A program made the position numbers and the translations under genes. DNA of 64,000 nucleotides, from contig NZ_JAHBGD010000005.1 in NCBI RefSeq assembly GCF_018390605.1, positions 124,001 through 188,000 on the forward strand, written 5' to 3'. The notes below the pieces were generated by a model. That model worked only from the letters and a program-made list of their open reading frames with translations, was not told the origin of the DNA and ran no database searches. Shown here in pieces: positions 29,908 through 47,747 of this stretch; the stretch's first letter is position 1, and each line of letters starts with the position of its first letter. This DNA is from Ancylobacter defluvii (GTDB lineage Bacteria > Pseudomonadota > Alphaproteobacteria > Rhizobiales > Xanthobacteraceae).

Positions 29908-30870
29908 TCAGTGGTCGGAAGCGACCGGTGGAGTCCCGTGAGTGTGGAAGCTCTCGATCGTCTTGAGACCCCAGGCCTGCCCCTTCTTCCGCTCGGTTTC
30001 CGTCCAGGTGACAGGCTGCCAATCGGGGTCGAGAATGAGCCTCGCTCCGGCATTGGCCACTTCCACCCGGTTGCCGGCCGGCTCGTAGACATAGAGGAAG
30101 AAAGTCTGCTGCACGGCGTGCTTGTGCGGCCCGGTCTCGATGAAGACGCCGTTCTCGAGGAAGATGTCGGCCGCTTCCAGCACGTGCTCGCGCTGGTCGA
30201 CCGCATAGGTCACGTGATGGAAGCGCCCCTCGCTGTTGGTGAAGTCGCGCGTATAGGCGATGTCGTAGGTCTTGTTGTTGACCGTCAGCCAGCAGCCGGC
30301 CACCGCGCCGGAATCGAGCACGATCTGCTCCGTCACCCGGCTGCCCAACGCCGCGGGCAGGAATTCGCGGATCGCCGCCACGTCGCGGGCGAGCAGGTTG
30401 ACATGGTCGAGCCGGCGCACGGCACAGCCGCGGCCGTGGTTTCGCTGCGCCTGGTTCTTGAGCGCCGGCCGCTCTCCCGGCGGCGGGGTGTATTTCCGGG
30501 TGTCGAAATAGATTTCGAACACATGCCGGTCCGGATCGTGAAAGCGATAGGCGCGGCCATGGCCCAGGTCGCCCCCCACCCAGCCAATGCCGGCGCCGAG
30601 CTTCTCGATGGCGGCGACGCGGCGTGCCAGTGCCTGCTCGCTGGTGGCGCGGTAGGCGATGTGGCCGACGCCGGTGCGGGACGCGGCGGTGAGCTTGAGG
30701 GTGTGGAACTCATAATCGTCCCACGCGCGCAGATAGATGCTGTCGCCCTCGCGCCCGCTCTCGGTGAGGCCAAGAATATTGACGAAGAAGTCGAGGCTTT
30801 CGGCCGGTTTGTCGGTCAACAGTTCGACATGCGCGAGATGGGCGATGTCGTGAATGGGTTCGGGCGTCAT
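29908..30870 (-). CDS. Type I (VOC) extradiol ring-cleavage dioxygenase, catechol-2,3-dioxygenase like
   Basis: This 320-residue two-domain vicinal-oxygen-chelate protein has the complete iron ligand set of catechol 2,3-dioxygenases: His156 (RLDHVNLL), His219 (RFHHVTYAVD) and Glu270 (GNRVEV), with nearby His251 and Tyr260. The tail PDWQPVTWTETERKKGQAWG is typical of this branch. It cleaves a catechol-like ring next to the hydroxyls. It is the last gene of a ten-gene operon with GalD, GalB and GalC homologues and a LIV-type importer. No LigAB/GalA-type dioxygenase is present, so this enzyme is the only ring-cleaving candidate; a gallate-like substrate is inferred, not shown. Confidence 0.88.
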   Translation of the reverse strand: MTPEPIHDIAHLAHVELLTDKPAESLDFFVNILGLTESGREGDSIYLRAWDDYEFHTLKLTAASRTGVGHIAYRATSEQALARRVAAIEKLGAGIGWVGGDLGHGRAYRFHDPDRHVFEIYFDTRKYTPPPGERPALKNQAQRNHGRGCAVRRLDHVNLLARDVAAIREFLPAALGSRVTEQIVLDSGAVAGCWLTVNNKTYDIAYTRDFTNSEGRFHHVTYAVDQREHVLEAADIFLENGVFIETGPHKHAVQQTFFLYVYEPAGNRVEVANAGARLILDPDWQPVTWTETERKKGQAWGLKTIESFHTHGTPPVASDH

Positions 30871-30897
30871 TTCCTTCCTTTTTCCTTTTCGTGCGGC

Positions 30898-31653
30898 CTA
30901 GCGGGGCGTACCCGTTGGCCGAGCCTCGCCGGATGGCTTCGCCGCCGGGGACCTTGCCACGCCGAGAAAGCCCTGCAGCATGGCGTCGTCGTCGAGTAGT
31001 GCCGCGCTGGCTGCCCGGTGCACGACGCGCCCGCGTTCCAGTATCATGGCGTCGTCGGTGATCTTGAGGATCTTGCGGGCGTGCTGCTCGACAATGATCG
31101 CGGCGAGACCCTCGGCCTTGAAGATGTCGCGCAGCGCCTTCAGCAGTTCCTCGACGATGATCGGCGCGAGACCTTCGGTCGGCTCGTCGAGCAAGAGCAG
31201 CTTCGGATTGAGCACCAGAGCACGGGCGATGGCGAGCATCTGCTGCTCGCCGCCGGAGAGCTGGTCGCCCATATTGGCGCGCCGCTCGCCGAGCCGCGGG
31301 AACATGGCGAAGACGCGCTCGGGCGTCCATGCGCCCGGACGGGCAACGGCGGTGAGGTTTTCCAGAACGGTCAGCGAGCGGAAGATGTTGCGCTCCTGCG
31401 GCACCCAGCCGATCCCGGCCCGTGCCCGCTTCTCCGGCCCGAAACTGGTGACGGCGATGTCGCCAAGCCGGATTTCGCCCGCCGTGCGGCGGGTGACCCC
31501 GATGATGCTGTTGAGCAGCGTCGTCTTGCCGACGCCATTGCGACCCAGGAGTGCGAGGCTGCGCCCCTCGGCGAGGCTGAAGCCGATGTCGTGCAGCACC
31601 ATGGCCTGGCCGTAGCCGGCGCTCAGGCGCTCGACGCTGAGCAGGTCACGCAT
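30898..31653 (-). CDS. livF: Branched-chain-type ABC transporter ATPase LivF
   Basis: This 251-residue ATPase has Walker A GRNGVGKTT, the LivF marker QERNIFRSLTVLENL, signature LSGGEQQML and Walker B LLLLDEPTEGLAP. It pairs with LivG to energise the LivH-LivM permease. Its ATG overlaps the livG stop by eight bases. Embedded in a ring-cleavage operon, this LIV system more likely imports an aromatic acid than amino acids. The C-terminus carries a proline/threonine-rich tail beyond the usual family end. Confidence 0.93.
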   Translation of the reverse strand: MRDLLSVERLSAGYGQAMVLHDIGFSLAEGRSLALLGRNGVGKTTLLNSIIGVTRRTAGEIRLGDIAVTSFGPEKRARAGIGWVPQERNIFRSLTVLENLTAVARPGAWTPERVFAMFPRLGERRANMGDQLSGGEQQMLAIARALVLNPKLLLLDEPTEGLAPIIVEELLKALRDIFKAEGLAAIIVEQHARKILKITDDAMILERGRVVHRAASAALLDDDAMLQGFLGVARSPAAKPSGEARPTGTPR

Positions 31654-32401
31654 CCTTGCCCTCTCCGAGATAGGCCGCCCGGACCGCCGGGTCGGCGGCG
31701 ATGGCCGCGGGTTCGCCATCGGCGATCACCGCGCCGTTCACCAGCACGGTGATGCGGGTGGCGAAGCGGAAGACGAGGTCCATGTCGTGCTCGATCAGCA
31801 AGACGCTGACGTCCTCAGGCAGTTCGGCCACGGTGTCGAGCAGGTCCTGGCGCTCGGCCTCCGGCACGCCGGCCGCGGGCTCGTCGAGCAGCAGCACCTT
31901 GGGCCGGGCGGCGAAGGCGGCGGCGATCTCCAGCTGGCGCTGCTTGCCGTAGGACAGGGTGGCGATGGTCGCGTCGATGACGTCGTCGAGGCGGAAGCGC
32001 TCGGCGATCGTCGCCGCCTCGCGCACGAGGTCGGCGCGCGCGTCGAGCCGGCTCCAGAAGTGCAGCCCGCGCCCTTCGCGCTCGCCGAGCACGAGCAGCA
32101 GCATCTCCAGCGGCGTCATGGTGCGGAACAGCTGGTTGATCTGAAAGGTCCGGCTCATGCCCAGCCGCACCCGCGCCTCCGGCCGGCGGTGGGTGATGTC
32201 CTCGCCCTCGAGGCGGATCTGCCCCTCGGTCGGCGTGAGCACGCCGGTCAGCTGGTTGACGAACGTGGTCTTGCCGGCGCCGTTGGGTCCGATAAGCGCA
32301 TGGCGCGCGCCGCGCCGGAGGGTGAAGGAGACGTGGTCAGTGGCGAGCAGGCCGCCGAAGCGCTTGACGAGGCCGATGGTTTCCAGAACCGGGGTGCTCA
32401 T
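31646..32401 (-). CDS. livG: Branched-chain-type ABC transporter ATPase LivG
   Basis: This 251-residue ATPase has Walker A GPNGAGKTT, the LivG-specific stretch RTFQINQLFRTMTPLEMLLL, signature LSYGKQRQLE and Walker B VLLLDEPAAGVPEAE. The signature has the LSYG form common in LivG proteins. ATG 32401 lies in an ATGA overlap with the livM stop. It works with LivF on the LivH-LivM channel. Confidence 0.93.
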   Translation of the reverse strand: MSTPVLETIGLVKRFGGLLATDHVSFTLRRGARHALIGPNGAGKTTFVNQLTGVLTPTEGQIRLEGEDITHRRPEARVRLGMSRTFQINQLFRTMTPLEMLLLVLGEREGRGLHFWSRLDARADLVREAATIAERFRLDDVIDATIATLSYGKQRQLEIAAAFAARPKVLLLDEPAAGVPEAERQDLLDTVAELPEDVSVLLIEHDMDLVFRFATRITVLVNGAVIADGEPAAIAADPAVRAAYLGEGKDA

Positions 32402-33489
32402 GCGCGGCGCCCTCCGAACAGGGCGGCAATCCGCCGGCGCAGGGCCGCGCCTGCCTTGTGCACCGCCTCGCGACCGCCCGAGACGAAGACCACCAGCAGC
32501 AGCCCGACCCAGAACTGCCAATACTGTGGCGTGGCGGCGGAGACGACATCCTGGAACAGCTCGAACAGCACCGCGCCGACCAGGCCGCCATAGAGCCAGC
32601 CGGTGCCGCCGATGATGAGCACCAGCATCAGGTCCGCCGAACGGTGGAACTCCAGCACGTCGAGCGAGACGAATTGCGTGGTCTGGGCGAGCAGCCCTCC
32701 GGCAGCGCCGGCATAGGCAGCGGCGAGCGTGTAGACCAGGACAAGCCGCTCGTTGACGCCGACACCGGAGGCGGAGGCGCGCAGCCGGTTGTCGCGCAGG
32801 GCGCGCAGTGACAGGCCGAAGGGCGAGCCCATCATCCGCCGCGCCGCCAGGAACAGCAGGAACAGCACGGCGAGGGAGTAGAGGTAAGCGGTGCGGCCCT
32901 GCAGGTCGAAGTCGAACAGGCCGAGCACCGGGCCTATAGTGATGCCCTGCAGGCCGTCGGCGCCGCCGGTAAGCGAGCGCCAGCTATTGGCAGCCTCGAA
33001 GACCAGCAGCGCCACGCCCAGCGTCACCATCAGCCGCGTGAGATCGCTGCCGCGCAGCACCAGGAAGCTGGACAGGAGGCCGAGTACAGAGGCGGCGAGC
33101 ATCGCCGCGACGAGACCGGCGAGCGGATCGGTGCTGACATTGAGCGCGAAAAGGCCGGCGGCATAGGCGCCGACGCCGAGGAAGGCGGCATGACCGAGCG
33201 AGACGATGCCGGCATAGCCGAGGATGAGGTCCAGCGACAGCGCGAAAAGGCCGAGGATGGCGATCTCGTTCATCAGCAGCATCGAGCGCGGCAGCATCAG
33301 CGGCGCCAGGATCGCCACGCCCCAGAACAGCAGCTCGACGGGCTTCCAGGCCCGGCGACGGCGCAGCAGCGTACCTGCGAGGCTGGTCGTGTCCGGGGCG
33401 GGCGCGGCGGTGGTTGCTGCCGGTGCCGCGGTGCCGGCGACGGGCAGGTTGGCGGCGGGGAGGGAGGCGGTCGGGCGGGCCATGCTCAT
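32398..33489 (-). CDS. livM: Branched-chain-type ABC transporter permease LivM
   Basis: This 363-residue permease starts in an ATGA overlap with livH. A hydrophilic Ala/Pro/Thr-rich N-terminal extension (about 1-45) precedes the membrane region. The LivM core shows LILGYAGIVSLGHAAFLGVGAYAAG and the EAA-like loop SLRALRDNRLRASASGVGV. It forms the import channel with LivH. The N-terminal extension has low complexity and may have arisen by start-site drift. Confidence 0.92.
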   Translation of the reverse strand: MSMARPTASLPAANLPVAGTAAPAATTAAPAPDTTSLAGTLLRRRRAWKPVELLFWGVAILAPLMLPRSMLLMNEIAILGLFALSLDLILGYAGIVSLGHAAFLGVGAYAAGLFALNVSTDPLAGLVAAMLAASVLGLLSSFLVLRGSDLTRLMVTLGVALLVFEAANSWRSLTGGADGLQGITIGPVLGLFDFDLQGRTAYLYSLAVLFLLFLAARRMMGSPFGLSLRALRDNRLRASASGVGVNERLVLVYTLAAAYAGAAGGLLAQTTQFVSLDVLEFHRSADLMLVLIIGGTGWLYGGLVGAVLFELFQDVVSAATPQYWQFWVGLLLVVFVSGGREAVHKAGAALRRRIAALFGGRRA

Positions 33490-34340
33490 CGCGCCGCCGC
33501 GAACAGGCCCTGCGGCCGGACCAGAAGCACGAGGATCATCAGCGCATAGATGATGAAGGCGCCGGCCTGCGGCAGGTAGTATTTGCCGGCCACGTCGGCG
33601 ACGCCGATCAGCAGTGCCGCGAGGAAGGGGCCGATAAGTCCGGCGCGGCCGCCGACCGTCACCACGATGAGAAAGTAGATCATGAACTTCAGCGGGAAGG
33701 TGGGGTCGAGGCCGAGCATCTCGGCGCCGAGCGCGCCGCCGAGGCCGGAAAGGCCGGAGCCGACGGCAAAGGTGAGCGTGAACAGCGTGCCGACCTCGAT
33801 GCCGAGCCCGCGCGCCACACGCTGGTCGTCCACCGCCGCGCGCAGCTGGCTGCCGAAACGGGTGCGGGTGAGCGCGAACTGCAGCAGCACGGTGATGACG
33901 ATGCACACCGCGATGACGAAGCTGCGGTAGCGGCCGACCCCGACCCCGCCGATGTCGAAGCGCCCCCGCAGCCAGGACGGCACATGCACCAGCTGCTGCT
34001 GCGAGCCCATGAAATAGTCCACCGCCGCCACCGACATGAACACTAGGCCGATGGAGAACAGCACCTGGTCGAGGTGGGACTTGTCGTAAAGCGGGCGATA
34101 GAGCGTGCGCTCCAGCGCCGCGCCGATCAGCGCCGGCACCAGAAAAGCCACCGGCAGCGTCGCCAGAAAGCCCATGCCGTAGCGCTGCATGAGCACCACG
34201 GTGACATATCCGCCCGCCATGGCGAACGACCCGTGAGCGAGGTTCACGAAGTTCATCAGGCCGAGCGTGACGGCGAGGCCGGACGCCAGGATGAAGAGCA
34301 GCATCCCATAGGCCACGCCATCGAAGAGGATGGTCAGCAT
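33486..34340 (-). CDS. livH: Branched-chain-type ABC transporter permease LivH
   Basis: This 284-residue permease with about eight membrane helices has the LivH signatures LGLMNFVNLAHGSFAMAGGYV, the cytoplasmic loop GSQLRAAVDDQRVARGLGIEV, and GRAGLIGPFLAALLIGV. It lies five bases downstream of galC, so importer and catabolic enzymes share one transcript. The substrate is inferred from the operon as an aromatic carboxylate. Confidence 0.93.
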   Translation of the reverse strand: MLTILFDGVAYGMLLFILASGLAVTLGLMNFVNLAHGSFAMAGGYVTVVLMQRYGMGFLATLPVAFLVPALIGAALERTLYRPLYDKSHLDQVLFSIGLVFMSVAAVDYFMGSQQQLVHVPSWLRGRFDIGGVGVGRYRSFVIAVCIVITVLLQFALTRTRFGSQLRAAVDDQRVARGLGIEVGTLFTLTFAVGSGLSGLGGALGAEMLGLDPTFPLKFMIYFLIVVTVGGRAGLIGPFLAALLIGVADVAGKYYLPQAGAFIIYALMILVLLVRPQGLFAAAR

Positions 34341-34345
34341 CGCGC

Positions 34346-35035
34346 TCAGCCTTCCGGGTCGTCGATATAGACGAGGCCTGCCTTGGCGAGCGGTTCGCGC
34401 ATCGCATACATGTCGAGGCCGAGCACGCCGGAGGCGAGGCGCCGGCGCTTCTCCTCCTCATTGGCCTCGCGCTGGCGGGCGGCGGCAGCCACCGCCGCCG
34501 CCTCCAGACGGGGCACGATCACCACGCCGTCATCGTCGGCCACCACCACGTCGCCCGGATTGACCAGCACGCCGCCACACACCACCGGGACATTGACGCT
34601 GCCCGGCGTCGCCTTCACCGTGCCCTTGGCGGAGATCGCCTTGGCCCACACCGGAAAGCCCATCTCCTTCAGCACCTTGACGTCGCGCACCCCGGCATCG
34701 GTGACGAGGCCGATGCCGCCGCGCGCCTTCAGCGAGGTGGCGAGCAGGTCGCCGAACATGCCGTCGGTATTGTCGGCGGTGCAGCCGACCACGATGATGT
34801 CGCCCGGCTTCACCTGCTCGATGGCGACGTGCAGCATCCAGTTGTCGCCGGGCTGGGCGAGCACCGTCACCGCGGTGCCGGCGATCTGCGCGCCGGGATA
34901 GATCGGGCGCATATAGGGCTTCATCAGCCCCAGCCGGCCGAACGCCTCGTGGGTGGTGGAAACGCCGAGCTCGCCGAGCGTGGCGATGTCGGCGGCGTCG
35001 GCCCGCTTGCTGGTACGAACGACGACGGGCTTCAT
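34346..35035 (-). CDS. galC: 4-carboxy-4-hydroxy-2-oxoadipate aldolase, GalC/LigK type (RraA-like fold)
   Basis: This 229-residue RraA-fold protein has the class II pyruvate aldolase pattern of GalC/HMG aldolases: [52 protein letters not shown] (Arg-Asp of the metal site) and [17 protein letters not shown]. It splits 4-carboxy-4-hydroxy-2-oxoadipate into pyruvate and oxaloacetate, the last step of the gallate/protocatechuate 4,5-cleavage route, and usually also decarboxylates oxaloacetate. ATG 35035 overlaps the galB stop as ATGA. A plain RNase E inhibitor RraA is unlikely given the neighbours. Confidence 0.88.
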
Positions 35036-35757
35036 GCCAGCACCTCCACGGCTTCGGGGAACAGTCGCTGATAGGCCTCGCCATAGGTCATGGCGCGGCC
35101 GGAATTGCGCCCGCCCTGCATGCCGCGGTTGAGCGCGACGCGGGTGTAGTATTCCCAGAGGTGCTGCTGGGCGGCGAGCACCTCGAAGGCGCGGCGCTTC
35201 ACCTCCCACACCTCGTCGATATTGAGGATCAGCGTCGGCTTGTAGTTGCACTGCTCCGGCTGGTGCGGCTCGAACAGGAACACCGGCGGCGCCGAATAGG
35301 GCCTGTTCGGATCCGGCTTGTGGCCAGCGGCCTGGGCGATGATCCGCGCCTCCTGGGCGAAGCGGGTCGCCTCGGGATGGTCGACGTTGTAGGGGTCCTG
35401 CAGCGAGTGGGTGAGCACGAAGCTCGGCGTGAGCTCGTGGAAGATATCGACGGCGCGGTCGAGCATCGCCTCGGTGGTGCGCAGCGGATAATCGCCGGCA
35501 TCCATGAACTCGATTTCGGCGCCGAGGATGGTGGCGGCGCGCTCGGCCTCGTCGCGACGCTGCGCCTTGACGTCTTCCATCTTCACCCCGGCCTTCTTCC
35601 AGGCGAACTGGCTCTCGCCGCGCTCGCCATAGGACAGGCACAGGATCTTCACCCGGTAGCCGCGCTTGACGTGCAACGCCACCGCGCCGCCCGTGCGCCA
35701 CACGAAATCGCCGGGATGCGCGGTGACGACCAGACCTGTCTTCTGCAGGCTCGACAT
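35032..35757 (-). CDS. galB: 4-oxalomesaconate hydratase, GalB type (PIG-L family)
   Basis: This 241-residue PIG-L-fold zinc protein has TAHPGDFVW at 12-20, which carries the metal ligands (His14, Asp17), and a third ligand in [10 protein letters not shown]. The segment [20 protein letters not shown] is characteristic of GalB of Pseudomonas putida, a PIG-L relative that hydrates 4-oxalomesaconate rather than deacetylating sugars. Sitting between galD and galC strongly supports this. I start at ATG 35757 because AGAGGA lies ten bases upstream and homology begins there; the open upstream frame overlaps the end of galD and is not conserved. Confidence 0.86.
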
Positions 35758-35782
35758 GCGAACTCGATCCTCTCGGTTTTCA

Positions 35783-36898
35783 TCATTCGGCGGCGCGGAG
35801 CGCGCCATCGGTTTGCGCCGATGCGGCCCGCGCCGGGACATAGGCGGATCCGTCCATCAGGATGCGGGCGGTGCGCAGCAGGCCGCCGCGCTCGACGACC
35901 GGGCGGTCCGGCGTGCCGCCGACCGTCAGATGCACGGTGAACTCGCCGGTGGGATGCTCCACCGACACCGACTTCTCGCGCCCCGGCGGCAACTGCGCGA
36001 CCGAGGCCGCAGGCGAGCCGGGCAGGGCGGCGGCGGTGGCGACGGTGAGCGCCGCGAACACGCCGATGGAGGCGTGGCATTCATGCGGAATGAAGCTGCG
36101 TGTCGCGATGGCGCCGCCGGCTCGTGGCGATGCCACCAGTGCGATCTTCGGCACCACCTTGCTGGAGACGTCGCCGAGATTCATCAATGGGCCGGCTGCC
36201 AGCCGGATCCGCTCGATGCGTGCCTTCAGTTCGACATCCTTGTCGAGCGCCTCGCGGCTCTCATAGCCGGTGCGCCCGACATCTGCGGCCCTGAGTACGA
36301 TCACCGGCATGCCGTTGTCGATCAACGTCACCTCGACGCCATCGACCACGTCCACCGCATTGCCGGTGGGCAGCAGCGTGCCGCAGACCGAGCCCTCGGT
36401 GTCGCGGAAGCCGATATTGATCGGCGCCGAGGTGCCGGGCACGCCATCGATGCGCGCGGTGCCGTCCGTGCGCGCCTCGCCGTTGGCGATCTCGACCCTC
36501 AGATCGGCAATGGTGCCGGTATTGAGCGTGCGCACCCGCAAGGTGGTCACCGGCTCTTCGATGGGCACCAGCCCGCGGGCGATGGCGAACGGTCCGACTC
36601 CCGAAAGGATGTTGCCGCAATTGGGCGTGGTGTCGACATGCGCGGTGTCGACGCCGACCTGTGCGAACAGGAAGTCGACGTCGCACGCCGGGTCGGCGGA
36701 GGGCGAGACGATCGCTACCTTGCTTGTGAGCGGATGTGCCCCGCCCAGCCCGTCGATCTGGCGCTTGTCCGGCGAGCCCATCACGGCGAGCAGCAGTGCA
36801 TCGCGTGCGTCGCGATCCTGCGGCAGGTCGGAGGCGAGGAAATAAGCCCCCTTGGACGTTCCTCCCCGGATGAGCATGCACCTAACGCGGCTCTGCAT
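35783..36898 (-). CDS. galD: 4-oxalomesaconate tautomerase, GalD type (PrpF family)
   Basis: This 371-residue PrpF/DapF-like isomerase opens with RCMLIRGGTSKGAYFLASDL, the typical GalD start, and has PNCGNILSGVGPFAIARGL with the active-site Cys, followed by HECHASIGVFAALTVATA. It converts keto and enol forms of 4-oxalomesaconate so that the hydratase can act. It is four bases from the orphan tctC stop upstream and 25 bases before galB. A methylaconitate isomerase role is the alternative, but galB and galC next door favour GalD. Confidence 0.9.
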   Translation of the reverse strand: MQSRVRCMLIRGGTSKGAYFLASDLPQDRDARDALLLAVMGSPDKRQIDGLGGAHPLTSKVAIVSPSADPACDVDFLFAQVGVDTAHVDTTPNCGNILSGVGPFAIARGLVPIEEPVTTLRVRTLNTGTIADLRVEIANGEARTDGTARIDGVPGTSAPINIGFRDTEGSVCGTLLPTGNAVDVVDGVEVTLIDNGMPVIVLRAADVGRTGYESREALDKDVELKARIERIRLAAGPLMNLGDVSSKVVPKIALVASPRAGGAIATRSFIPHECHASIGVFAALTVATAAALPGSPAASVAQLPPGREKSVSVEHPTGEFTVHLTVGGTPDRPVVERGGLLRTARILMDGSAYVPARAASAQTDGALRAAE

Positions 36899-36901
36899 CT
36901 G

Positions 36902-37900
36902 TCAGCCTCCGGCTTTTATCTGGGCCTGGGTGATGACCTCGCGCCACACCGGCAGTTCCGAGGCGATCAGCTCGCCGAAGGCTTCCGGCGGGCGGGGAGT
37001 GGCGACCGCACCGTCCTTTTCCAGCACGGCGGCGAATTCGGGGGTGGCGAGCTGCGCGTTGATCTCGCGGTTCAGGCGATCGACGATCTCGCGCGGCGTG
37101 CCCTTCGGCGCGACGATCCCGTACCATTGCACCGCCTCGAAGCCGGGAAGGCCGCTCTCGGCGATGGTGGGCAGCTGCGGTGCGAAGGTGGCGCGCTCGG
37201 CGCTGGCGACGCCGAGTGCCCGCAATTGGCCCTTGCTGGCGAAGGGCAGCACCGCCGGCCCGCCGGTGAGGGTAAACTGCACGACGCCGCCGATCAGATC
37301 GACCACCGAGGGAGCGGTGCCGCGATAGGGCACGTGTACCGCCTGGAAGCCCGCCTTGTAGGCAAGATAGGCACCGGCGATGTGAGCGGCGCTGCCCTGG
37401 CCGCCCGAGCTGTAGTTCAGCTTGCCGGGATTGGCCTTGGCGTAGGCGACGAATTCCTGGAAATCCTTGGCCGGAACCTCCGGATTGACGACGAGGATGT
37501 TCGGCACCGACGCGACCAGCGCCACCGGCTCGAAGTCGCGGATCGGATCGTAGGGCAGGTCCGGATAGAGCGCCGGATTGAAAGCCAGCGTGCCGATATG
37601 GCCCATCATCAGCGTGTGGCCGTCGGGGGCGGCCTTCGCCACCTGTGCGGCGGCGATGGTGCCGCCGGCGCCGGCCTTGTTTTCGATGATGAAGCCGGGA
37701 CCGCCGATGGTCGGCGCGATCTTGGCGGCGATCAGCCGGGCGAGCACGTCGGTGCTGCCGCCGGGCGTGAACGGCACCACGATCTTCACCACCTGCGAGG
37801 GCCAAGCCTGCGAAGCTTCGGCCGCCTGGGCGCGCAGGACGGCGGGAGCGCAGACGCCGGCAAGACCGAGGCCGGCAATGAGCGAGCGTCGATTAAGCAT
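36902..37900 (-). CDS. TctC-family periplasmic binding protein (orphan, within ABC operon)
   Basis: This 332-residue solute-binding protein of the tripartite tricarboxylate transport family has a signal peptide with a twin-arginine-like start (LNRRSLIAGLGLAG). It shows the Bug-family signatures VPFTPGGSTDVLARLIA, IENKAGAGGTIAA, and YSSGGQGSAAHIAG with VPYRGTAPSVVDL. Bug proteins bind carboxylates or aromatic acids. No tctA or tctB accompanies it in this operon. It may supply the TctAB pair encoded about 8 kb away, or may sense ligand. ATG 37900 follows GGAGGAGA. Confidence 0.9.
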   Translation of the reverse strand: MLNRRSLIAGLGLAGVCAPAVLRAQAAEASQAWPSQVVKIVVPFTPGGSTDVLARLIAAKIAPTIGGPGFIIENKAGAGGTIAAAQVAKAAPDGHTLMMGHIGTLAFNPALYPDLPYDPIRDFEPVALVASVPNILVVNPEVPAKDFQEFVAYAKANPGKLNYSSGGQGSAAHIAGAYLAYKAGFQAVHVPYRGTAPSVVDLIGGVVQFTLTGGPAVLPFASKGQLRALGVASAERATFAPQLPTIAESGLPGFEAVQWYGIVAPKGTPREIVDRLNREINAQLATPEFAAVLEKDGAVATPRPPEAFGELIASELPVWREVITQAQIKAGG

Positions 37901-37923
37901 GGTTCTCTCCTCCATCTTGCCGT

Positions 37924-39105
37924 TCAGAGACCGGCCTTGGACGGGTCTTTGACATTGGGGATGGTGGCGAATTCGACATTGTAGAGCTCGCCACCCATGC
38001 GCTCGACGCGGCGGATGTAGATGTTCTGGATCGGCTCGCGGGTGGCGGGATCGATGGTGAAGGGCCCGCGCGGGCTTTCCCAGGACAGGCCTTTCATGGC
38101 CTCGACCAGTTGCTGGCCGTTGGTCGAGCCGCCAGTCTTCTTCAGCGCCTCGTAGACGAGCCGCATGCCGTCATAGGCATGCACGGCTATGTGGTTGGGC
38201 CGGTGGCCATAGGCCTTGCGGAAGGCCTCGACGAAGGCGGCGTTCTCCGGGCTCTTATGCGCCGCCGAATAATGGTGCGCGGTGATCATGCCCAGAACGG
38301 AATCGTCCATCTGGGTGATGATGTCGTCCTCGGTGACGCTGCCTTCGCCGAGCACCTTGATGCCCGACTTGTCGAGGCCGCGTTCGACGAACTGCTTCAT
38401 CAGCGCCGCCCCGAGACCGGTCGGAACGAACACGAACAGCGCTTCCGGCTTGGCATCGACCGCCCGCTGCAGGAACGGAGCGAAATCACGGGTACTCAGC
38501 GGCACGCGGATGGCTTCGAGCACCTCGCCGCCTTCCGCCTTGAAGCGGTTGTTGAAGCCCGCCTCGGAATCGAGGCCCGGCGCGTAGTCGGCGACGATGC
38601 TCACCACCTTGCGAATGCCGTTCTGGTAGGCCCAGTCGGCGAGCGGCACGGTGGTCTGCGCCTGGGTGAAGGCCGGGCGGACGATAAAGGGCGAACGCTC
38701 CGTGACCACCGAGGTCGCCGCCATCATCACGATCTCCGGCACCTTGGCCTGCGTCGCCAGCGGCGCGACGGCCAGCGCCAGCGGCGTCAGGCCGAAGCCG
38801 GTGAGGATGGTGACGCCGTCATTCGCCACCATTTCCTGGGCGATGCGCTTGGTGACGTCGGCGACGCCGGTGTCGTCGCGCACGATCAACTCGATCTTCT
38901 TGCCGGCGACGGTGTCGCCCGCCTGTTTCATGTAGAGCCGCACACCCTCCTCCAGCATGCGGCCGGTGGAGGTGAACGGGCCGGTCATCGGAGCGATGAG
39001 CCCGATCTTCACGACGTTGTCGTCCGCCATGGCCTTGCGGGCCATTGTGGGGACGGCGAACGCCAATCCGGCGCTCGCCAGAAGGGCGCGGCGATTGATG
39101 GCCAT
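37924..39105 (-). CDS. LIV-type ABC transporter substrate-binding protein (first gene of the aromatic operon)
   Basis: This 393-residue periplasmic binding protein of the leucine/aromatic-acid family (Peripla_BP_6) has a signal peptide with RRALLASAGLAFAVPTMA. The opening VKIGLIAPMTGPFTSTGRMLEEGVRLYM, the central ADYAPGLDSEAGFNNRFKAEGG and the closing NHIAVHAYDGMRLVYEALK are typical. It probably delivers the aromatic substrate to LivHMGF encoded five genes downstream. ATG 39105 follows AGGAA by seven bases. Its 5' leader is strikingly rich in C and A. The gene follows lysR on the same strand after a 250-base gap with a LysR box. Confidence 0.9.
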   Translation of the reverse strand: MAINRRALLASAGLAFAVPTMARKAMADDNVVKIGLIAPMTGPFTSTGRMLEEGVRLYMKQAGDTVAGKKIELIVRDDTGVADVTKRIAQEMVANDGVTILTGFGLTPLALAVAPLATQAKVPEIVMMAATSVVTERSPFIVRPAFTQAQTTVPLADWAYQNGIRKVVSIVADYAPGLDSEAGFNNRFKAEGGEVLEAIRVPLSTRDFAPFLQRAVDAKPEALFVFVPTGLGAALMKQFVERGLDKSGIKVLGEGSVTEDDIITQMDDSVLGMITAHHYSAAHKSPENAAFVEAFRKAYGHRPNHIAVHAYDGMRLVYEALKKTGGSTNGQQLVEAMKGLSWESPRGPFTIDPATREPIQNIYIRRVERMGGELYNVEFATIPNVKDPSKAGL

Positions 39106-39358: not shown

Positions 39359-40261
39359 TCAGTCGGCGATGCTTTCGTGCAGTGCGGCGATGACCAGATC
39401 GAGCAGGTCACGGGCGGCCGGGCGCAGCGGCAGCCCCTTGCGCGTCACGATGCCGAGTGTGCGCGTCACCGTGGGCGAGCGCAGCGGGATCGCCACGATG
39501 TCGTCCCGCGAGACGACATCCAGCGCCAGCTTGGGCACTACGGCGCAGCCAATGCCCGAGCGCACCAGGCTGACCGCGGTGACCACCCGCTGCACTTCGT
39601 AGCGCCACAACAGCGTCTCGCTGCGCGCGCCGAGCGCGTCGTCGATGAGGATGCGATTGCCGGTTTCCGAGCTGATACGCACCAGCGGCATGCCGCCGAG
39701 CTCGGCCCAGCTGATCGAGGATGCGCCGGCCATCGGCATGCTGCGGTGGCAGACCAGCACGAAGGGTTCCTTCACGATCGGCTTGAGTTCGAGGTCCCAG
39801 CGATTGGCCGACATGATGGTCACGCCGAACTCGGCTTCGCCCGACTGCACCTTGTCGGCGATCTCCAGCACCGAATTGTCGTGGACGGTGACCTGGACAT
39901 TGCCGTAGCGGGCGACGAAGGCGGCGATCACCTCCGGCATGCAGCGCATCGCCACCGTGGGCAGGCAGCCCATCACCACCCGCTCCTCCGCCTCGCGGGC
40001 GGTGGTGCGCAGATCTTCCAGCGTGGTGCCGAGCTCCTCGAACACTTTTCGAGCGCGGGGCAGCAAAGCGGTGCCGGCCGGCGTCAGCGTCACCTGCCGG
40101 GTCGTGCGCACCAGCAATTGCAGCGACAGCGATTCCTCGAGCTTGCGGATGCGGTGGCTGAGCGCGGTCTGCGACAGATTCAGATGCGAGGCGGCCGCCC
40201 GGAAGCTGCCCCGTTCGGCGATGCTGACGAATGCCTGAAGTCCCAACACGTCGATTCGCAT
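39359..40261 (-). CDS. LysR-family regulator of the aromatic (gal-like) operon
   Basis: This 300-residue LysR regulator has an N-terminal winged helix-turn-helix (FVSIAERGSFRAAASHLNLSQTALS, then RTTRQVTLTPAG) and an effector domain (EERVVMGCLPTVAMRCMPEVI onward). It is encoded just upstream of, and in the same direction as, the ten-gene operon, with a LysR box between them. It is therefore the likely activator, analogous to GalR, a LysR regulator of gallate genes in Pseudomonas putida. I start at ATG 40261, where the domain begins (RIDVLGLQAF). A palindrome in the divergent gap may be its autoregulatory site. Confidence 0.92.
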   Translation of the reverse strand: MRIDVLGLQAFVSIAERGSFRAAASHLNLSQTALSHRIRKLEESLSLQLLVRTTRQVTLTPAGTALLPRARKVFEELGTTLEDLRTTAREAEERVVMGCLPTVAMRCMPEVIAAFVARYGNVQVTVHDNSVLEIADKVQSGEAEFGVTIMSANRWDLELKPIVKEPFVLVCHRSMPMAGASSISWAELGGMPLVRISSETGNRILIDDALGARSETLLWRYEVQRVVTAVSLVRSGIGCAVVPKLALDVVSRDDIVAIPLRSPTVTRTLGIVTRKGLPLRPAARDLLDLVIAALHESIAD

Positions 40262-40425: not shown

Positions 40426-41370
40426 ATGCGGCAGAAGCTGAGTTCCCGTCTGAAGTTGCGGCAGATCGAAATCGTCATCGCGGTTGCGGAGCAGGGGAGC
40501 TTCCTCGCCGCCTCGCATCAGCTGGAGCTGAGCCAGCCGGCGGTGTCGAAGGCGGTGCAGGAGATCGAGGCCATTCTGGGCCAGCCGATCTTCGATCGGG
40601 TGCCGCGCGGCGTGCTTATCAATCCGTTCGGCAAGGCGGTCGTCGAGAGGGGACGCGCCATGCTGTCGCTCGTCGAGCGTCTCGGCGACGACGTCGTGCT
40701 CATCGAGCAGGGCCTTGCCGGCACGCTGGTGATCGGCGCCCTGCCGACCGCGGCGTCAAGCGTGCTGCCGGCGGCACTCGGCCGGCTGCGGGCAACCAAT
40801 CCGGATCTCAACATCCGCATCGTGCAGGGGCGCACGGTGGAACTCATGCCGCAACTCGAAAGCGGCAAGCTCGACATTATTGTCGGCCGCCTCTACGAGG
40901 CCGAGACCTCCCAGGATGTGCAGCGCGAAACCATCTATCATGAGCCGATCTCGATGATCGTGCGGGCCGACCACCCGCTGCTGAAGCACGGAAAGGTCGA
41001 TGTGGAGACCTTAGCCCGCTACGGGCTGGTGCTGCCCTCGCTGGAGCAGCGGCTGGGGCAGGAGGTGGATTCGGTGCTGGCCTATTCCAACCTGCTGCCG
41101 AGCACGCCGCCGCTGCGCTCGACCTCGCTCTCGTTCATTCGCGAACTCATCCTTTCCAGCGATTTCGTCACCGTCCTGCCACGCCTCATGCTGGCGGGCG
41201 ACCTCACGCGCGGTGCGGTGCACCTGCTGCCGGTGGCGCTGGTCTCGGTGAGCCGGCCGGCCGGCATCGTCTCCCTACGCCACCGGCGGCGGCCGGCCAG
41301 CGTCGCGGCCCTGATCACGGCGCTGCGCGAGCATCTGCGCGAACTGCAAAAGACCGGTCTGCTGGACTGA
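40426..41370 (+). CDS. LysR-family regulator, GbpR/CbbR-like
   Basis: This 314-residue LysR regulator has a winged helix-turn-helix at about 18-45 (GSFLAASHQLELSQPAVSKAV) and the GbpR-like wing FDRVPRGVLINPFGKAVVE. Its effector domain (GTLVIGALPTAASSVLPAAL) resembles GbpR, which binds sugars or aromatic acids. Its stop is 112 bases before the nitroreductase gene, so it probably controls the plus-strand catabolic operon. ATG 40426 follows a weak GGCGGA; homology begins at SRLKLRQIEIV. It is divergent from the other lysR. Confidence 0.9.
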   Translation: MRQKLSSRLKLRQIEIVIAVAEQGSFLAASHQLELSQPAVSKAVQEIEAILGQPIFDRVPRGVLINPFGKAVVERGRAMLSLVERLGDDVVLIEQGLAGTLVIGALPTAASSVLPAALGRLRATNPDLNIRIVQGRTVELMPQLESGKLDIIVGRLYEAETSQDVQRETIYHEPISMIVRADHPLLKHGKVDVETLARYGLVLPSLEQRLGQEVDSVLAYSNLLPSTPPLRSTSLSFIRELILSSDFVTVLPRLMLAGDLTRGAVHLLPVALVSVSRPAGIVSLRHRRRPASVAALITALREHLRELQKTGLLD

Positions 41371-41388
41371 AGGCGCGGCCGACGCAGG

Positions 41389-41405
41389 TATAACTTTTAG
41401 CTATA
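41389..41405 (+). promoter_or_regulatory. Possible LysR box TAT-N11-ATA upstream of the plus-strand catabolic operon
   Basis: TATAACTTTTAGCTATA is a short, AT-rich imperfect palindrome with TAT and ATA separated by 11 bases, 78 bases before ATG 41483. It stands out in GC-rich DNA and has the T-N11-A spacing, but only three symmetric bases per arm. Confidence 0.35.
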
Positions 41406-41482
41406 GATATTTTGCCGTTTGGCCGGACGACGGGCCATCGATTCTTGTGTCTATTTCCGCCCAACAAACGGTGGAAACGACC

Positions 41483-42112
41483 ATGGACGCCAATACCGAC
41501 GCGACGCGGACCGACGCGACGCGGCAGCGTGTCGCCGACAGCGCTCTCGACCTGATTTTCCGTGACGCGCGAACCTATTATGGCTGGCTACCGAAGCCGG
41601 TCGGGGAAGCGGATCTGCGGGCCCTCTACGAGATCGCCAAGCTGCCGCCGACCAGCAGCAACATCTGCCCGCAGCGCATCGTCTTCGTGGTCTCGCCGGA
41701 AGCCAAGGAACAACTCAGGCCCTGCCTGAAGCCGGGCAATGTCGACAAGACCATGGCGGCGCCGGTGACGGCGGTGCTCGGCATCGACACCGCCTTCTAC
41801 GAACATCTGGAGACGCTGGCGCCGCATGCGGTCGACCGGCGCGAGACCTACATCGCCGATCCGGATCTCGCCTGGCGGGCCGCCTTCCGCAACGCGACGC
41901 TGCAGGGCGCCTATCTGCTCCTGGCGGCACGGGCGCTCGGCCTCGATTGTGGCCCGATGTCCGGCTTCCTGCACGACGCGGTGGACGAGACCTTTTTCCC
42001 CGGCGGGCGCGTCAAGTCGAACTTCCTCGTCAATATCGGCTACGGCGACCCGGCGAGCCTGCGGCCCCGTGCAGCCCGCTTCGACTTCGACGATGTGTGC
42101 CGGATTCTCTGA
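41483..42112 (+). CDS. Nitroreductase-family FMN oxidoreductase, RutE-like
   Basis: This 209-residue protein of the nitroreductase fold has the RutE/HadB-type pattern LIFRDARTYYGWLPKPVGE, LPPTSSNICPQRIVFVV (FMN contacts), NVDKTMAAPVTAVLGID, RNATLQGAYLLLAARALGLDCGPMSGF and FLVNIGYGD. RutE reduces malonic semialdehyde in pyrimidine breakdown; other members reduce nitro groups or enones. Here it is the first gene of the plus-strand operon beside dehydrogenases and a TTT transporter, so reduction of a semialdehyde intermediate is plausible. ATG 41483 is preceded by GGTGGAA; a GTG at 41447 is an alternative. Confidence 0.85.
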   Translation: MDANTDATRTDATRQRVADSALDLIFRDARTYYGWLPKPVGEADLRALYEIAKLPPTSSNICPQRIVFVVSPEAKEQLRPCLKPGNVDKTMAAPVTAVLGIDTAFYEHLETLAPHAVDRRETYIADPDLAWRAAFRNATLQGAYLLLAARALGLDCGPMSGFLHDAVDETFFPGGRVKSNFLVNIGYGDPASLRPRAARFDFDDVCRIL

Positions 42113-42123
42113 GGGGCATGAAC

Positions 42124-43032
42124 ATGTCTGACGCCGGTCTTCACCCCGACGGCAAGCTGCCGCCGAAACTCTGCTTCATCGGCTTCGGCGAAGCCGGGCA
42201 AGCCTTTGCCGGCGGCCTGATGCAAGCGGGCATTCGCGAGGTCGCGGCGTTCGATATTGCCGGCCACGAGGCCCGTATATGCGTGCCGGCCGAACGGCTT
42301 GGCGTGCGCCTCGCCGCCGACCCCGCAACCGCGCTGGAAGGCGCCGATTACGTGTTTTCAGCGGTCACGGCCGAGTCGAGCCTCGATGCGGCGCGCCGTG
42401 TCGCTCCGCTGCTCGGGCCGCACCAGCTTTTCGTCGATGTGAATTCGGTGTCCCCCGGTCGCAAGCGCGCCGCGGCCGCAGCCATCGGCCGGCCCGGCGG
42501 CTATCTCGACCTCGCGATCATGGCGCCGGTGCATCCGCGCCAGCACCAGACGCCCTGCCTCGCCGCCGGCCCGTCCGCGGAGAGCTTCGTCGCCGTGTTC
42601 GGCGACTATGGCATGAACCTCTCCGTCGCGGGTCCGGAGATCGGCGCGGCGACACAGGTGAAGATGGTGCGCAGCGTCATGGTGAAGGGCCTCGAGGCAC
42701 TTTGCTACGAGTGTTTCGCCGCCGCGCGGTCGGCGGGGATAGAGGCCGATATCCTCGCATCCCTCCAACGTAGCTATCCGGGGATCGCGTGGCGGGATGT
42801 CGCTTCCTACAACGTCAGCCGGATGCTCGACCATGGTGTGAGGCGTGCGGCCGAAATGCGCGAGGTCGCTCTCACGCTGCGCGAGCTCGGCGTCGAGCCG
42901 GCGGTGACCGAGGGCACGGTGGCGCAGCAGGAACGGCTCGGCCGCCTCGCCCTCGAGACCTATCCGCCGGATCTGGAGGAGATGCTCGACCTGGTCCGCC
43001 GGGAACTGAAGGACGCGAACGTGCTGGCCTGA
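42124..43032 (+). CDS. NAD(P)-dependent beta-hydroxyacid dehydrogenase-like protein with DUF1932 domain
   Basis: This 302-residue protein has an N-terminal Rossmann domain (LCFIGFGEAGQAFAGGL; GxGxxG) of the 6-phosphogluconate/3-hydroxyisobutyrate dehydrogenase type. The catalytic helix is TQVKMVRSVMVKGLEALCYE, with the Lys at the family's catalytic position. The C-terminal part (YPGIAWRDVASYNVSRMLDHGVRRAAEM) matches DUF1932. It should oxidise or reduce a hydroxy acid; the substrate is unknown. I prefer ATG 42124 because GAGGGG is seven bases upstream; ATG 42118 is too close to that site. Eleven bases separate it from the nitroreductase gene. Confidence 0.88.
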   Translation: MSDAGLHPDGKLPPKLCFIGFGEAGQAFAGGLMQAGIREVAAFDIAGHEARICVPAERLGVRLAADPATALEGADYVFSAVTAESSLDAARRVAPLLGPHQLFVDVNSVSPGRKRAAAAAIGRPGGYLDLAIMAPVHPRQHQTPCLAAGPSAESFVAVFGDYGMNLSVAGPEIGAATQVKMVRSVMVKGLEALCYECFAAARSAGIEADILASLQRSYPGIAWRDVASYNVSRMLDHGVRRAAEMREVALTLRELGVEPAVTEGTVAQQERLGRLALETYPPDLEEMLDLVRRELKDANVLA

Positions 43033-43140
43033 TCGGCCGGAAGAGACCGAGTTTTCCAGCGCGCCGGTCCGGCGCGGCAACGAGAGAAACCGGGATATTC
43101 AATCGGGAAACGCCGTCTTCGAGGCGTGAGGAACGACCCA

Positions 43141-44625
43141 ATGTACATTGATGGCATCAAGACCCCCGACGTTCTGCCGAAGAACCGCGAACTCTATTAC
43201 GGCGGCGCCTGGCGGGCGCCGGTGCAGAATGCGCGGATCGAGCTCACCAATCCGGCCAAGGGCTCGTCGCTCGGCTTCGTGGCGCAGGCCGATGCGTCGG
43301 ATGTGGATGCGGCGGTCAAGGCGGCGAAGGCGGCCTATCGCGAATGGCGCAAGGTCCGGCCGGCCGAGCGGGCCAAGATCCTCCGGCAGATCGCCCGCAT
43401 CGTCCGCGAGAACGCCGACGAGTTGGCGCTGATCGACGCGATCGACGGCGGCAACCCCGTGCACGAGATGGCCGGCGATGTCGCCAACGCCGCGGCGCAG
43501 CTCGATTTCTTCGCCGGCCTCGTCACCGAAATGAAGGGGCACTCGGTGCCGCTCGGGCCTGACTCGGTGAATTTCTCGGTGCGCGAACCGCGCGGCGTCA
43601 TCGGCCGCATCATCCCCTTCAACCATCCCTTCATGTTCTGTGCCGCCAAGTCGGCGGCACCGCTTGCGGCGGGCAATGTCGTGGTGGTCAAGCCGCCGGA
43701 CCAGGCGCCGCTGAGCTCGCTGCGCTTCGCCGAACTCATTGACGGCCTGCTGCCGCCGGGCGTGTTCAGCGTGCTGCCGGGCGGTCGCGAGACCGGCGCG
43801 GCGCTGGCCTCGCACCCGGACGTGGCGATGATCTCGCTGATCGGCAGCGTGCAGGCCGGCCGGGCGGTGATGAAGGCCGGCGCCGACACCATCAAGCCGG
43901 TGCTGCTGGAACTCGGCGGCAAGAATGCGCTGATCGCCCGCGCTGATGCCGACCCGGACGAGGTGGCGAGCGCGGTGGTCGCCGGCATGAACTTCACCTG
44001 GTGCGGCCAGTCCTGCGGCTCGACCAGCCGGGTGTTTCTGCACGAGGCGATCCATGACGCGGTGGTCGAACGCATCGCGCGCAAGATCGATCATTTCAAG
44101 CCCGGCGATCCCGCCGATCCGGCGACCACCATGGGCGCCATCATCAGCCGCGCCCAGTTCGACAAGGTGATGAGCTTCATCGCCGACACCAAGGCCGAGG
44201 GCGCGACGCTGCTGTGCGGCGGCGGCGTGCCGGAAGATCCAGCACTGGCCGGCGGCAATTTCGTCCAGCCGACCATCTTCACCGAGGTCACGCCGCAGAT
44301 GCGCCTCGCCCGCGAGGAGGTGTTCGGCCCGGTGCTCGCAATATTCCGCTGGTCCGACGAGGCGCGGATGCTGGAGACGGTCAACAGCGTCGAATACGGA
44401 CTGACCTGCTCGATCTGGACCGACGACGTGCGCGAAGCGCATCGGCTGGCGGGCGAGGTCGAAGCCGGTTTCGTCTGGATCAACGAGGTCTCCCGCCATT
44501 TCCTCGGCACGCCCTTCGGTGGCTACAAGCAATCCGGCCTCGGCCGCGAGGAATGCCTGGAGGAACTGCTGGCCTACACCCAGGAGAAGCACATCCACGT
44601 CAATCTGAAGCGCCCGGCTCGCTGA
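43141..44625 (+). CDS. NAD(P)-dependent aldehyde dehydrogenase
   Basis: This 494-residue aldehyde dehydrogenase has the NAD motif VIGRIIPFNHPFMFCAAKSA, KPPDQAPLSSLRFAELI, catalytic Glu in PVLLELGGKNALI, catalytic Cys in WCGQSCGSTSR, and the C-terminal GTPFGGYKQSGLGREE. The CGQSCG context is slightly unusual because one Cys precedes the catalytic one by four residues. It oxidises an aldehyde to the acid, probably a semialdehyde of the pathway. ATG 43141 follows GAGGAA; a GTG lies 15 bases upstream. Confidence 0.93.
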   Translation: MYIDGIKTPDVLPKNRELYYGGAWRAPVQNARIELTNPAKGSSLGFVAQADASDVDAAVKAAKAAYREWRKVRPAERAKILRQIARIVRENADELALIDAIDGGNPVHEMAGDVANAAAQLDFFAGLVTEMKGHSVPLGPDSVNFSVREPRGVIGRIIPFNHPFMFCAAKSAAPLAAGNVVVVKPPDQAPLSSLRFAELIDGLLPPGVFSVLPGGRETGAALASHPDVAMISLIGSVQAGRAVMKAGADTIKPVLLELGGKNALIARADADPDEVASAVVAGMNFTWCGQSCGSTSRVFLHEAIHDAVVERIARKIDHFKPGDPADPATTMGAIISRAQFDKVMSFIADTKAEGATLLCGGGVPEDPALAGGNFVQPTIFTEVTPQMRLAREEVFGPVLAIFRWSDEARMLETVNSVEYGLTCSIWTDDVREAHRLAGEVEAGFVWINEVSRHFLGTPFGGYKQSGLGREECLEELLAYTQEKHIHVNLKRPAR

Positions 44626-44692
44626 GCCGGCGGTCCAACCGACGAAACCCCCGCAGAGGGGTTCGCAAGCAAGACCTTACATGGAGAGGAAA

Positions 44693-45664: not shown

Positions 45665-45722
45665 GGGCGGCCCGGCCGGCCGCCTCCGTCCGAAATGCGA
45701 CAGCTCTATCGAGGAGGCTCGC

Positions 45723-46223
45723 ATGTCTTTGCTGAAACGGGATGCGCAGGGACCGCATCCCGCCATCCGCTCGCCGCAGAATTTCGTCGCCGGGGCCTTC
45801 CTGATCGTCGCCGCCGCCTTCGTCGTCTGGATGCTCAGCGGCCTGCCGCAGGGCACCCTGCGCACGATGGGACCGGCGATGGTGCCGCGCTGGACGGCGA
45901 TCGGCATCGGCATCGGCGGTGCTGTGCTGGTGGTGCTGAGCTTCGTCAAGGAAGGCGAGGCACTGGAGCGCTGGCAGCTGCGCGGCCCGATCTTCGTGCT
46001 GGCATCGCTCGTCATCTTCGCGGCGATGATCCGCTCGGTGGGTTTCCTCGTCGCGGCGCCCTTGTCGATGTTGGTGGCCGGCTTTGGTTCGCGCGAGGTG
46101 CGGCCGGTCGAACTCGCCATCTTCACCGTGGTGATGACGGTGTTCTGCGCCGTCGTCTTCCGCGGCCTGCTGAACCAGCCGCTGCCGATGCTGATCCTTC
46201 CGGCCCTCTCGATCCAGTTCTGA
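45723..46223 (+). CDS. tctB: Tripartite tricarboxylate transporter small membrane subunit TctB
   Basis: This 166-residue protein has four membrane helices (from FVAGAFLIVAAAFVVWML to the PMLILPALSI end), as expected for TctB. The first loop has the usual TctB pattern GTLRTMGPAMVPRWTAIGIG. It forms the small integral-membrane subunit with TctA. GAGGAGGC lies just upstream of ATG 45723. It follows tctC by 58 bases and precedes tctA by seven. Confidence 0.92.
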   Translation: MSLLKRDAQGPHPAIRSPQNFVAGAFLIVAAAFVVWMLSGLPQGTLRTMGPAMVPRWTAIGIGIGGAVLVVLSFVKEGEALERWQLRGPIFVLASLVIFAAMIRSVGFLVAAPLSMLVAGFGSREVRPVELAIFTVVMTVFCAVVFRGLLNQPLPMLILPALSIQF

Positions 46224-46230
46224 GCTCCCG

Positions 46231-47730: not shown

Positions 47731-47747
47731 CAGACCGGAACGGATAG

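Follow-up and report, generated by a model that had tools for sequence, protein, structure and literature searches.

A catechol 2,3-dioxygenase-like protein with tyrosine at the catalytic histidine position as a candidate gallate dioxygenase in an Ancylobacter operon

Which enzyme opens the ring in an operon that carries the lower pathway of gallate degradation next to a gene for a catechol 2,3-dioxygenase-like protein of the VOC fold? The question is raised by a 64,000-nucleotide stretch of an Ancylobacter-like genome (contig NZ_JAHBGD010000005.1, positions 124,001 to 188,000; hereafter the window). The reaction proposed here, gallate to 4-oxalomesaconate, and the downstream enzymes GalD, GalB and GalC are like those of GalA from Pseudomonas putida and DesB from Sphingobium SYK-6. 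These two enzymes, however, are described as members of the LigB (type II) fold (PMC3962378; PMC4250580), whereas the operon encodes a VOC-fold protein in a genome that gave no match to the LigB family (PF02900). We propose, with a probability of roughly 0.7, that the operon imports a hydroxybenzoate and degrades gallate, with the VOC enzyme cleaving the gallate ring (and possibly also that of 3-O-methylgallate).

The VOC protein matches PF00903 and passes the cut-off of the curated catechol 2,3-dioxygenase model (TIGR03211; 326.3 versus 320.2 bits), so that it would probably be named automatically as a catechol 2,3-dioxygenase despite the absence of the catalytic histidine. Its AlphaFold2 model (mean predicted local distance difference test score, pLDDT, 83.8) has the two-domain VOC fold and was matched by Foldseek along its entire length to catechol 2,3-dioxygenases (template modelling score, TM, 0.90 against 3lm4), and also to structures of homoprotocatechuate 2,3-dioxygenase (HPCD). 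The iron ligands His156, His219 and Glu270, which an earlier note on this DNA had identified, agree with our alignment, and the equivalents of HPCD His155, Asn157, Trp192, His214, His248, Tyr257 and Glu267 are all retained in the alignment to the HPCD chain. HPCD Trp192 and His200 correspond to columns 194 and 202 of the VOC protein, and column 202, where type I extradiol dioxygenases carry their second-sphere catalytic histidine, holds a tyrosine that the earlier note had overlooked. The protein thus resembles HPCD (1f1x, 1q0c; about 28% identity) in fold, iron triad and the Tyr257, His248, Asn157 and Trp192 equivalents, and differs from it in His200 to Tyr202 and Arg243 to Thr246. Likewise, it has the two-domain fold and the triad in common with the catechol 2,3-dioxygenases and AphC (3lm4, 7q2a, 1mpy), which keep the histidine. 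Its sequence is best read as that of a putative catechol 2,3-dioxygenase-fold enzyme with tyrosine in place of the catalytic histidine, and hence of an atypical type I extradiol dioxygenase. Lys296, considered as a counterpart of HPCD Arg293, became a weaker candidate, as it aligns with Arg292 and Gly297 with Arg293; the model is poor at the adjoining residues 298-314 (pLDDT <50), and we claim no carboxylate-binding residue.

The tyrosine proved to be a property of the whole family. We aligned 84 family members (78 of 80 retrieved VOC loci, the window's own copy, L081, and five plasmid copies; L005 and L062 were excluded for a stop within the aligned stretch), and both the iron triad and Tyr202 were present in 84/84, whereas histidine occupied column 202 in 9/9 references (catechol 2,3-dioxygenases, HpaD, 3lm4, a Thermus protein and others) and in HPCD. 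The Tyr257, His248, Asn157 and Trp192 equivalents were invariant, and six further residues (Arg277, His249, Ala252, Gln254, Arg294 and His309) were conserved in every family member but in none of the nine references. As judged from these alignments, what appears to be new here is the family-wide Tyr202 at the catalytic histidine position with the triad kept.

Sampling more widely gave the same picture. Among 249 genomes drawn evenly from the order, tyrosine occurred at 36 of the 37 VOC places checked (of 39; the window's own copy and G146 were left out). The sole histidine belonged to a 51% paralog (L109) in genome G138, flanked by genes for a 2-hydroxymuconic semialdehyde dehydrogenase (898 bits, cut-off 693), HpaH (373, cut-off 351.5) and an HpaI-type aldolase below its cut-off (340 versus 368.8); the same genome also has a tyrosine copy (L120), which is grouped with GalB, GalC and GalD. 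A draw across the phylum, in which 24/397 genomes matched the VOC protein at E 1e-60, added 12 places, 11 with tyrosine and one with histidine. The latter, a 50% paralog (L178), neighbours DmpE/H-type, acetaldehyde dehydrogenase and 4-hydroxy-2-oxovalerate aldolase genes, and a histidine paralog from Thermus (L101) has similar neighbours. The nearest histidine paralogs (L109, L178 and L101) sit in ordinary semialdehyde pathways. In a FastTree phylogeny of 43 chosen sequences, the 31 tyrosine tips formed one clade with a local support of 0.895, or 0.975 when PDB entry 9wgj was left out. This entry, which its depositors named 'Catechol 1,2-dioxygenase', is the closest solved sequence (53% identity) and is sister to the VOC family clade; it likewise has tyrosine at the His200 position and lacks Arg277 and His249. 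A source organism, substrate or paper for 9wgj was looked for and none was found; if its name reflects a measured activity, the tyrosine is not specific to gallate enzymes. One family gene (L152; G219:C8:100713-101659), with GalB and GalC relatives nearby, matches in two pieces with an internal stop and looks broken.

The operon itself comprises ten genes on the minus strand (29908-39105 of the window), preceded by a regulator gene on the same strand:

29908..30870, minus strand: VOC-fold dioxygenase, the proposed gallate dioxygenase (His156/His219/Glu270 triad, Tyr202 replacing the catalytic histidine)
30898..31653, minus strand: LivF-type ABC ATPase (named, with no family-model scan, from a 64% relative in L096 annotated as ABC transporter ATP-binding protein)
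31646..32401, minus strand: LivG-type ABC ATPase
32398..33489, minus strand: LivM-type permease (named, with no family-model scan, from a 55% relative in L096 annotated as branched-chain amino acid ABC transporter permease)
33486..34340, minus strand: LivH-type permease
34346..35035, minus strand: GalC/LigK, 4-carboxy-4-hydroxy-2-oxoadipate aldolase (curated models)
35032..35763, minus strand: GalB-type 4-oxalomesaconate hydratase, PIG-L fold (start at ATG 35757 or GTG 35763)
35783..36898, minus strand: GalD, 4-oxalomesaconate tautomerase (NF033377)
36902..37900, minus strand: TctC-type binding protein (no TctAB in the operon; terephthalate-binding proteins among its best solved relatives)
37924..39105, minus strand: LIV-type periplasmic binding protein (best solved relatives 4ey3/4eyg/4eyk, 500 bits)
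39359..40261 (approximate, start codon assumed), minus strand: LysR-type regulator, upstream of the operon

All ten frames are open with zero internal stops, and the gaps from the first to the last gene measure 23, 3, 25, -4, 5, -4, -4, -8 and 27 bases (the 25-base gap between GalD and GalB presupposes the GalB ATG start at 35757). With no gap above 27 bases and 4-base overlaps at three junctions, the one-directional ten-gene operon with ATGA overlaps described in the earlier note was borne out. So was its naming of GalD, GalB and GalC: GalD (514 bits, cut-off 440) and GalC (376 versus 179 for NF006731; 366 versus 304.5 for TIGR02798) exceed the curated cut-offs, and GalB, for which the NCBIfam scan returned no GalB model, has as its best solved relative the 4-oxalomesaconate hydratase 5cgz (E 1.2e-82). 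Together these three enzymes of the lower gallate pathway, all encoded in the operon, convert 4-oxalomesaconate to pyruvate and oxaloacetate. The LysR regulator has relatives close to gal genes in many loci.

Divergently from the gal operon, a second catabolic cluster lies on the plus strand (40426-49526 of the window), with genes for a PcaQ-like LysR regulator, a nitroreductase-family protein, a DUF1932 dehydrogenase, an aldehyde dehydrogenase, TctC/TctB/TctA (named by sequence, length and order, as the NCBIfam scan gave no match) and a thiamine-pyrophosphate enzyme. The TctA and TctB encoded there are possible partners for the TctC that stands alone in the gal operon.

The earlier note had found no LigB-fold dioxygenase in the operon, and this observation now extends to the whole genome, which is 99.95% complete. 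The search for a LigAB/GalA homologue elsewhere was negative, PF02900 having no match at E 0.001, while the positive control matched in 4/14 named genomes; a hidden LigB enzyme was rejected for this genome on this result. At E 0.001 the genome has one copy of the VOC gene, whose nearest relatives in the genome collection are Ancylobacter proteins (93-94% identity).

Across the order sample, 38 genomes had the VOC gene (E 1e-40) and 56 had GalB (E 1e-30); 35 genomes had both (Fisher p 1.4e-24, for related genomes and uncorrected for kinship), with the two genes at most 12 kb apart in 23 of the 249 genomes. LigB of at least 170 bits (hereafter strong LigB) was found in 32/249. The VOC gene was present in 26/33 GalB genomes without strong LigB, and in 10/14 GalB genomes without any LigB match at E 1e-10. 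Outside the order draw, a search of 49 VOC-carrying genomes from the 80 retrieved loci found no LigB match in 26. When these 49 and the window's own genome were searched for the 2-pyrone-4,6-dicarboxylate hydrolase LigI, no homologue at E 1e-10 was found in 14/50, and 11 of these 14 also lacked LigB. The VOC stretch encodes GalB and GalC in all 11 and GalD in 10 (three are metagenome-assembled genomes of 3.0-3.4 Mb, completeness being given for none, and the absence is weaker there). Since these 11 genomes carry the VOC gene with neither LigB nor LigI, the ring-opening product should be 4-oxalomesaconate itself.

The neighbours of the VOC gene in the 80 loci provided pointers to the substrate. 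At least one of GalB, GalC and GalD (at least 45% identity) was found in 61/80 loci (62 without low-complexity masking), and all three at E 1e-10 in 43/80; several of the 19 loci lacking Gal genes are short contigs. Gene orders vary (galDBC-liv-VOC, VOC-galBCD, galB-VOC-galCD and divergent forms), as does the type of transport (LIV, TRAP (DctM) or DctA), and in the actinomycete Nonomuraea (Actinomycetota) galB, galC, galD and the VOC gene are contiguous (tblastn). Relatives of HpaH and HpaI were found in 0/80 loci, and semialdehyde dehydrogenases of at least 40% identity also in 0/80. Gallate is the acid found in hydrolysable tannins, and it also arises as an intermediate when syringate is broken down. 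We examined four annotated plasmid regions that contain a family member; in one of them, from Agrobacterium, the order is galB, VOC, galC, galD, tannase (PF07519, 438 bits). A 51% relative of this tannase (574/576 residues) lies 4 kb past the VOC gene in a Methylobacterium (L074), the sole one in the 80 loci. In Chelativorans (L044), a DesA syringate O-demethylase (882 bits, cut-off 800) is encoded 3.3 kb from VOC-GalBCD; L045 and L047 encode relatives at 93-96% identity, and L043 and L060 relatives at 49-51%. In G214 (locus L112) the gene for a LigM-type demethylase, which scores 635 bits against a cut-off of 580, is 3 kb from the VOC gene. DesA and LigM are reported to take syringate to gallate (PMC6888825). 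The tannase and syringate-demethylase neighbours of these relatives point to gallate or 3-O-methylgallate, while VanA-type genes in L049, L077, L080 and L099 are compatible with protocatechuate or gallate. The earlier suggestion of a type I dioxygenase for gallate or a relative is supported by the negative LigB search, by the co-occurrence with GalB (35/38 VOC genomes) and by these neighbours, except that the enzyme is no ordinary member of its class, its catalytic histidine being Tyr202.

From gene content, co-occurrence, conservation and the negative searches for LigB and a close 2-pyrone-4,6-dicarboxylate hydrolase we infer the substrate, its product and the following route. The acid would be imported by LivHMGF with the LIV-type (perhaps also the TctC) binding proteins, and the VOC enzyme, with Fe(II) and O2, would open the ring of gallate, possibly also of 3-O-methylgallate; the 4-oxalomesaconate formed would then pass through GalD, GalB and GalC to pyruvate and oxaloacetate. 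Gallate has three adjacent hydroxyls, and cleavage of its C4-C5 bond would be intradiol with respect to one hydroxyl pair and extradiol with respect to the other, either mode giving 4-carboxy-2-hydroxymuconate, the enol of 4-oxalomesaconate. Because both modes give one product, the role of the histidine in selectivity may be dispensable in a gallate enzyme, and protons could be supplied by Tyr202 or by the third hydroxyl of gallate. A paper titled 'Conversion of Extradiol ...' reportedly used His200 variants. In HPCD, His200 is described as a second-sphere acid-base residue without which the rate vanishes (PMC10760822), and calculations are reported in which Tyr257, His200 and His248 control extradiol over intradiol cleavage (PMC6308299).

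Several observations weigh against this proposal. GalB is absent from 3/38 VOC genomes, including G214 with its LigM-type neighbour, and one tyrosine copy (L179) lies among unrelated genes. Seven GalB genomes have neither the VOC gene nor strong LigB, so that GalB alone is no proof of ring cleavage. The order draw included one congener, G121, in which the VOC gene and GalB are both missing. A DesA-family match (E 1e-50) was found in only 6/50 VOC genomes, with the DesA cut-off passed in three, and none was found in the source genome; a tannase search of the source genome gave no match either, the control also matching in no genome. Relatives of the DUF1932 dehydrogenase occur in 43/80 loci at E 1e-10 (29 by stricter clustering), and LigI-like genes in 4/80 and also in L122, L125, L127, L136, L138 and L140; both count against the proposal because a pure gallate route needs neither. 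Finally, LigB shares a stretch with the VOC gene in 3/80 loci (L049, L060 and L075, the last with LigA and LigB immediately before the VOC gene) and in a Roseomonas mucosa plasmid (L099:10055-12972), where LigA, LigB, an alpha/beta hydrolase and VOC are adjacent and the VanA-type demethylase is nearby, and both VOC and LigB are near GalB in G114, G125 and G146. These seven clusters may handle two substrates; alternatively, they may count against the idea that the VOC enzyme substitutes for LigB. The DUF1932 count and the third LigB locus (L075) on one side, and the second tannase neighbour (L074) on the other, pull in opposite directions.

The strongest rival is protocatechuate 4,5-cleavage, with the VOC enzyme as the 4,5-dioxygenase; its product, 4-carboxy-2-hydroxymuconate semialdehyde (CHMS), would be converted to 2-pyrone-4,6-dicarboxylate by the DUF1932 dehydrogenase, to 4-oxalomesaconate by LigI and onward by GalDBC. 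The GalC aldolase is reported also to act as the last step of that route (PMC5065237). DUF1932, VOC and LigI genes stand side by side in L125, and the genome from which the LigI query was taken, G044, has VOC and LigI without LigB. The structures 4ey3/4eyg/4eyk, to which the LIV binding protein is closely related, were reportedly solved with bound hydroxybenzoates, protocatechuate included. In the window, the DUF1932 dehydrogenase (6-phosphogluconate-dehydrogenase-like; 42109-43032) lies in the neighbouring cluster, and the aldehyde dehydrogenase (43126-44625), in a cluster separate from the operon, scores under the cut-offs for HpaE and for hydroxymuconic semialdehyde dehydrogenase. Against this route, the source genome has no close LigI: the best relative has 36% identity and belongs to an unrelated cluster, which we read from the sequences as carrying Rieske(-like) and LIV transport genes. 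Protocatechuate, moreover, has its own pca route in this genome, given that PcaH (322 bits, cut-off 296) lies elsewhere on the contig with a second intradiol gene alongside, AroQ and a QuiC-like dehydratase (below the QuiC cut-off). The 11 VOC genomes devoid of LigI and LigB speak in the same direction. LigI relatives of at least 64% identity, outside two Agrobacterium genomes, were found in six genomes, each with strong LigB, and DUF1932 accompanies GalB/GalD also in loci without VOC (L116, in a genome without LigB, and L117 and L119, with weak LigB only). Protocatechuate 4,5-cleavage is thus a poor fit to this genome and, for the enzyme studied here, unlikely; it is least easily dismissed for relatives carrying a DUF1932 dehydrogenase or a LigI-like gene.

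It would be more surprising if the VOC enzyme acted mainly on 3-O-methylgallate in a syringate route, yielding a methyl ester or 2-pyrone-4,6-dicarboxylate, with gallate as a minor substrate. The DesA or LigM-type demethylases close by in 5/80 loci and in G214, and the LigI-like genes near some copies, would suit such a role. The low frequency of DesA among VOC genomes and its absence from this one do not, nor does the lack of a close LigI here, and both tannase neighbours indicate gallate itself. A MetE-like protein is encoded in 24/80 loci, mostly right before the VOC gene (L006-L026, from Bosea and relatives, L014, L064, L077 and L080), the one in L064 belonging to the PRK06520 subfamily (551 bits); speculatively, it could provide a methyl-transfer step for methoxylated substrates.

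Very improbable, in our view, is that the VOC protein, having lost its catalytic histidine, is no ring-cleaver and acts on a downstream or unrelated compound, an unknown protein opening the ring or acids like 4-oxalomesaconate being imported. The rate loss reported for HPCD without His200 (PMC10760822) would fit this, as would the existence of GalB/GalD clusters without VOC or strong LigB; opposed to it are the invariant iron triad and Tyr257, His248, Asn157 and Trp192 equivalents, and the full-length structural match to catechol 2,3-dioxygenases. In one such cluster (L117:4573-12761), GalB and GalD are encoded near a LigI-like amidohydrolase, a DUF1932 protein and the tricarballylate dehydrogenase TcuA; a further use of the lower gal genes may be the handling of imported tricarboxylates. 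Ordinary catechol meta-cleavage was rejected, as the eight of ten operon genes scanned (LivF and LivM were named from relatives) include no semialdehyde dehydrogenase, hydratase or DmpFG, and carry GalDBC instead.

Returning to gallate cleavage by the VOC enzyme, a broader version of this proposal is more tentative, and we rate it at somewhat below even odds: that the enzyme represents a second, convergent gallate dioxygenase on the VOC fold, in a widespread monophyletic family that lost His200 once to tyrosine, a loss tolerated since both cleavage modes give 4-oxalomesaconate. A literature search limited to Creative Commons-licensed papers found no report of a VOC-fold gallate dioxygenase. 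If the proposal is true, two unrelated protein folds open gallate, and the second has been hidden in databases as catechol 2,3-dioxygenase, whose curated cut-off it passes; many soil Alphaproteobacteria would then be scored as lacking gallate catabolism. The His-to-Tyr change makes the locus more interesting than first stated, the proposal being supported by context and unproven. Such a natural exchange at a much-studied second-sphere residue would allow the parts played by acid-base catalysis and by extradiol/intradiol control to be examined with a substrate from which both modes yield one product, and the family would constitute a natural experiment on the function of His200.

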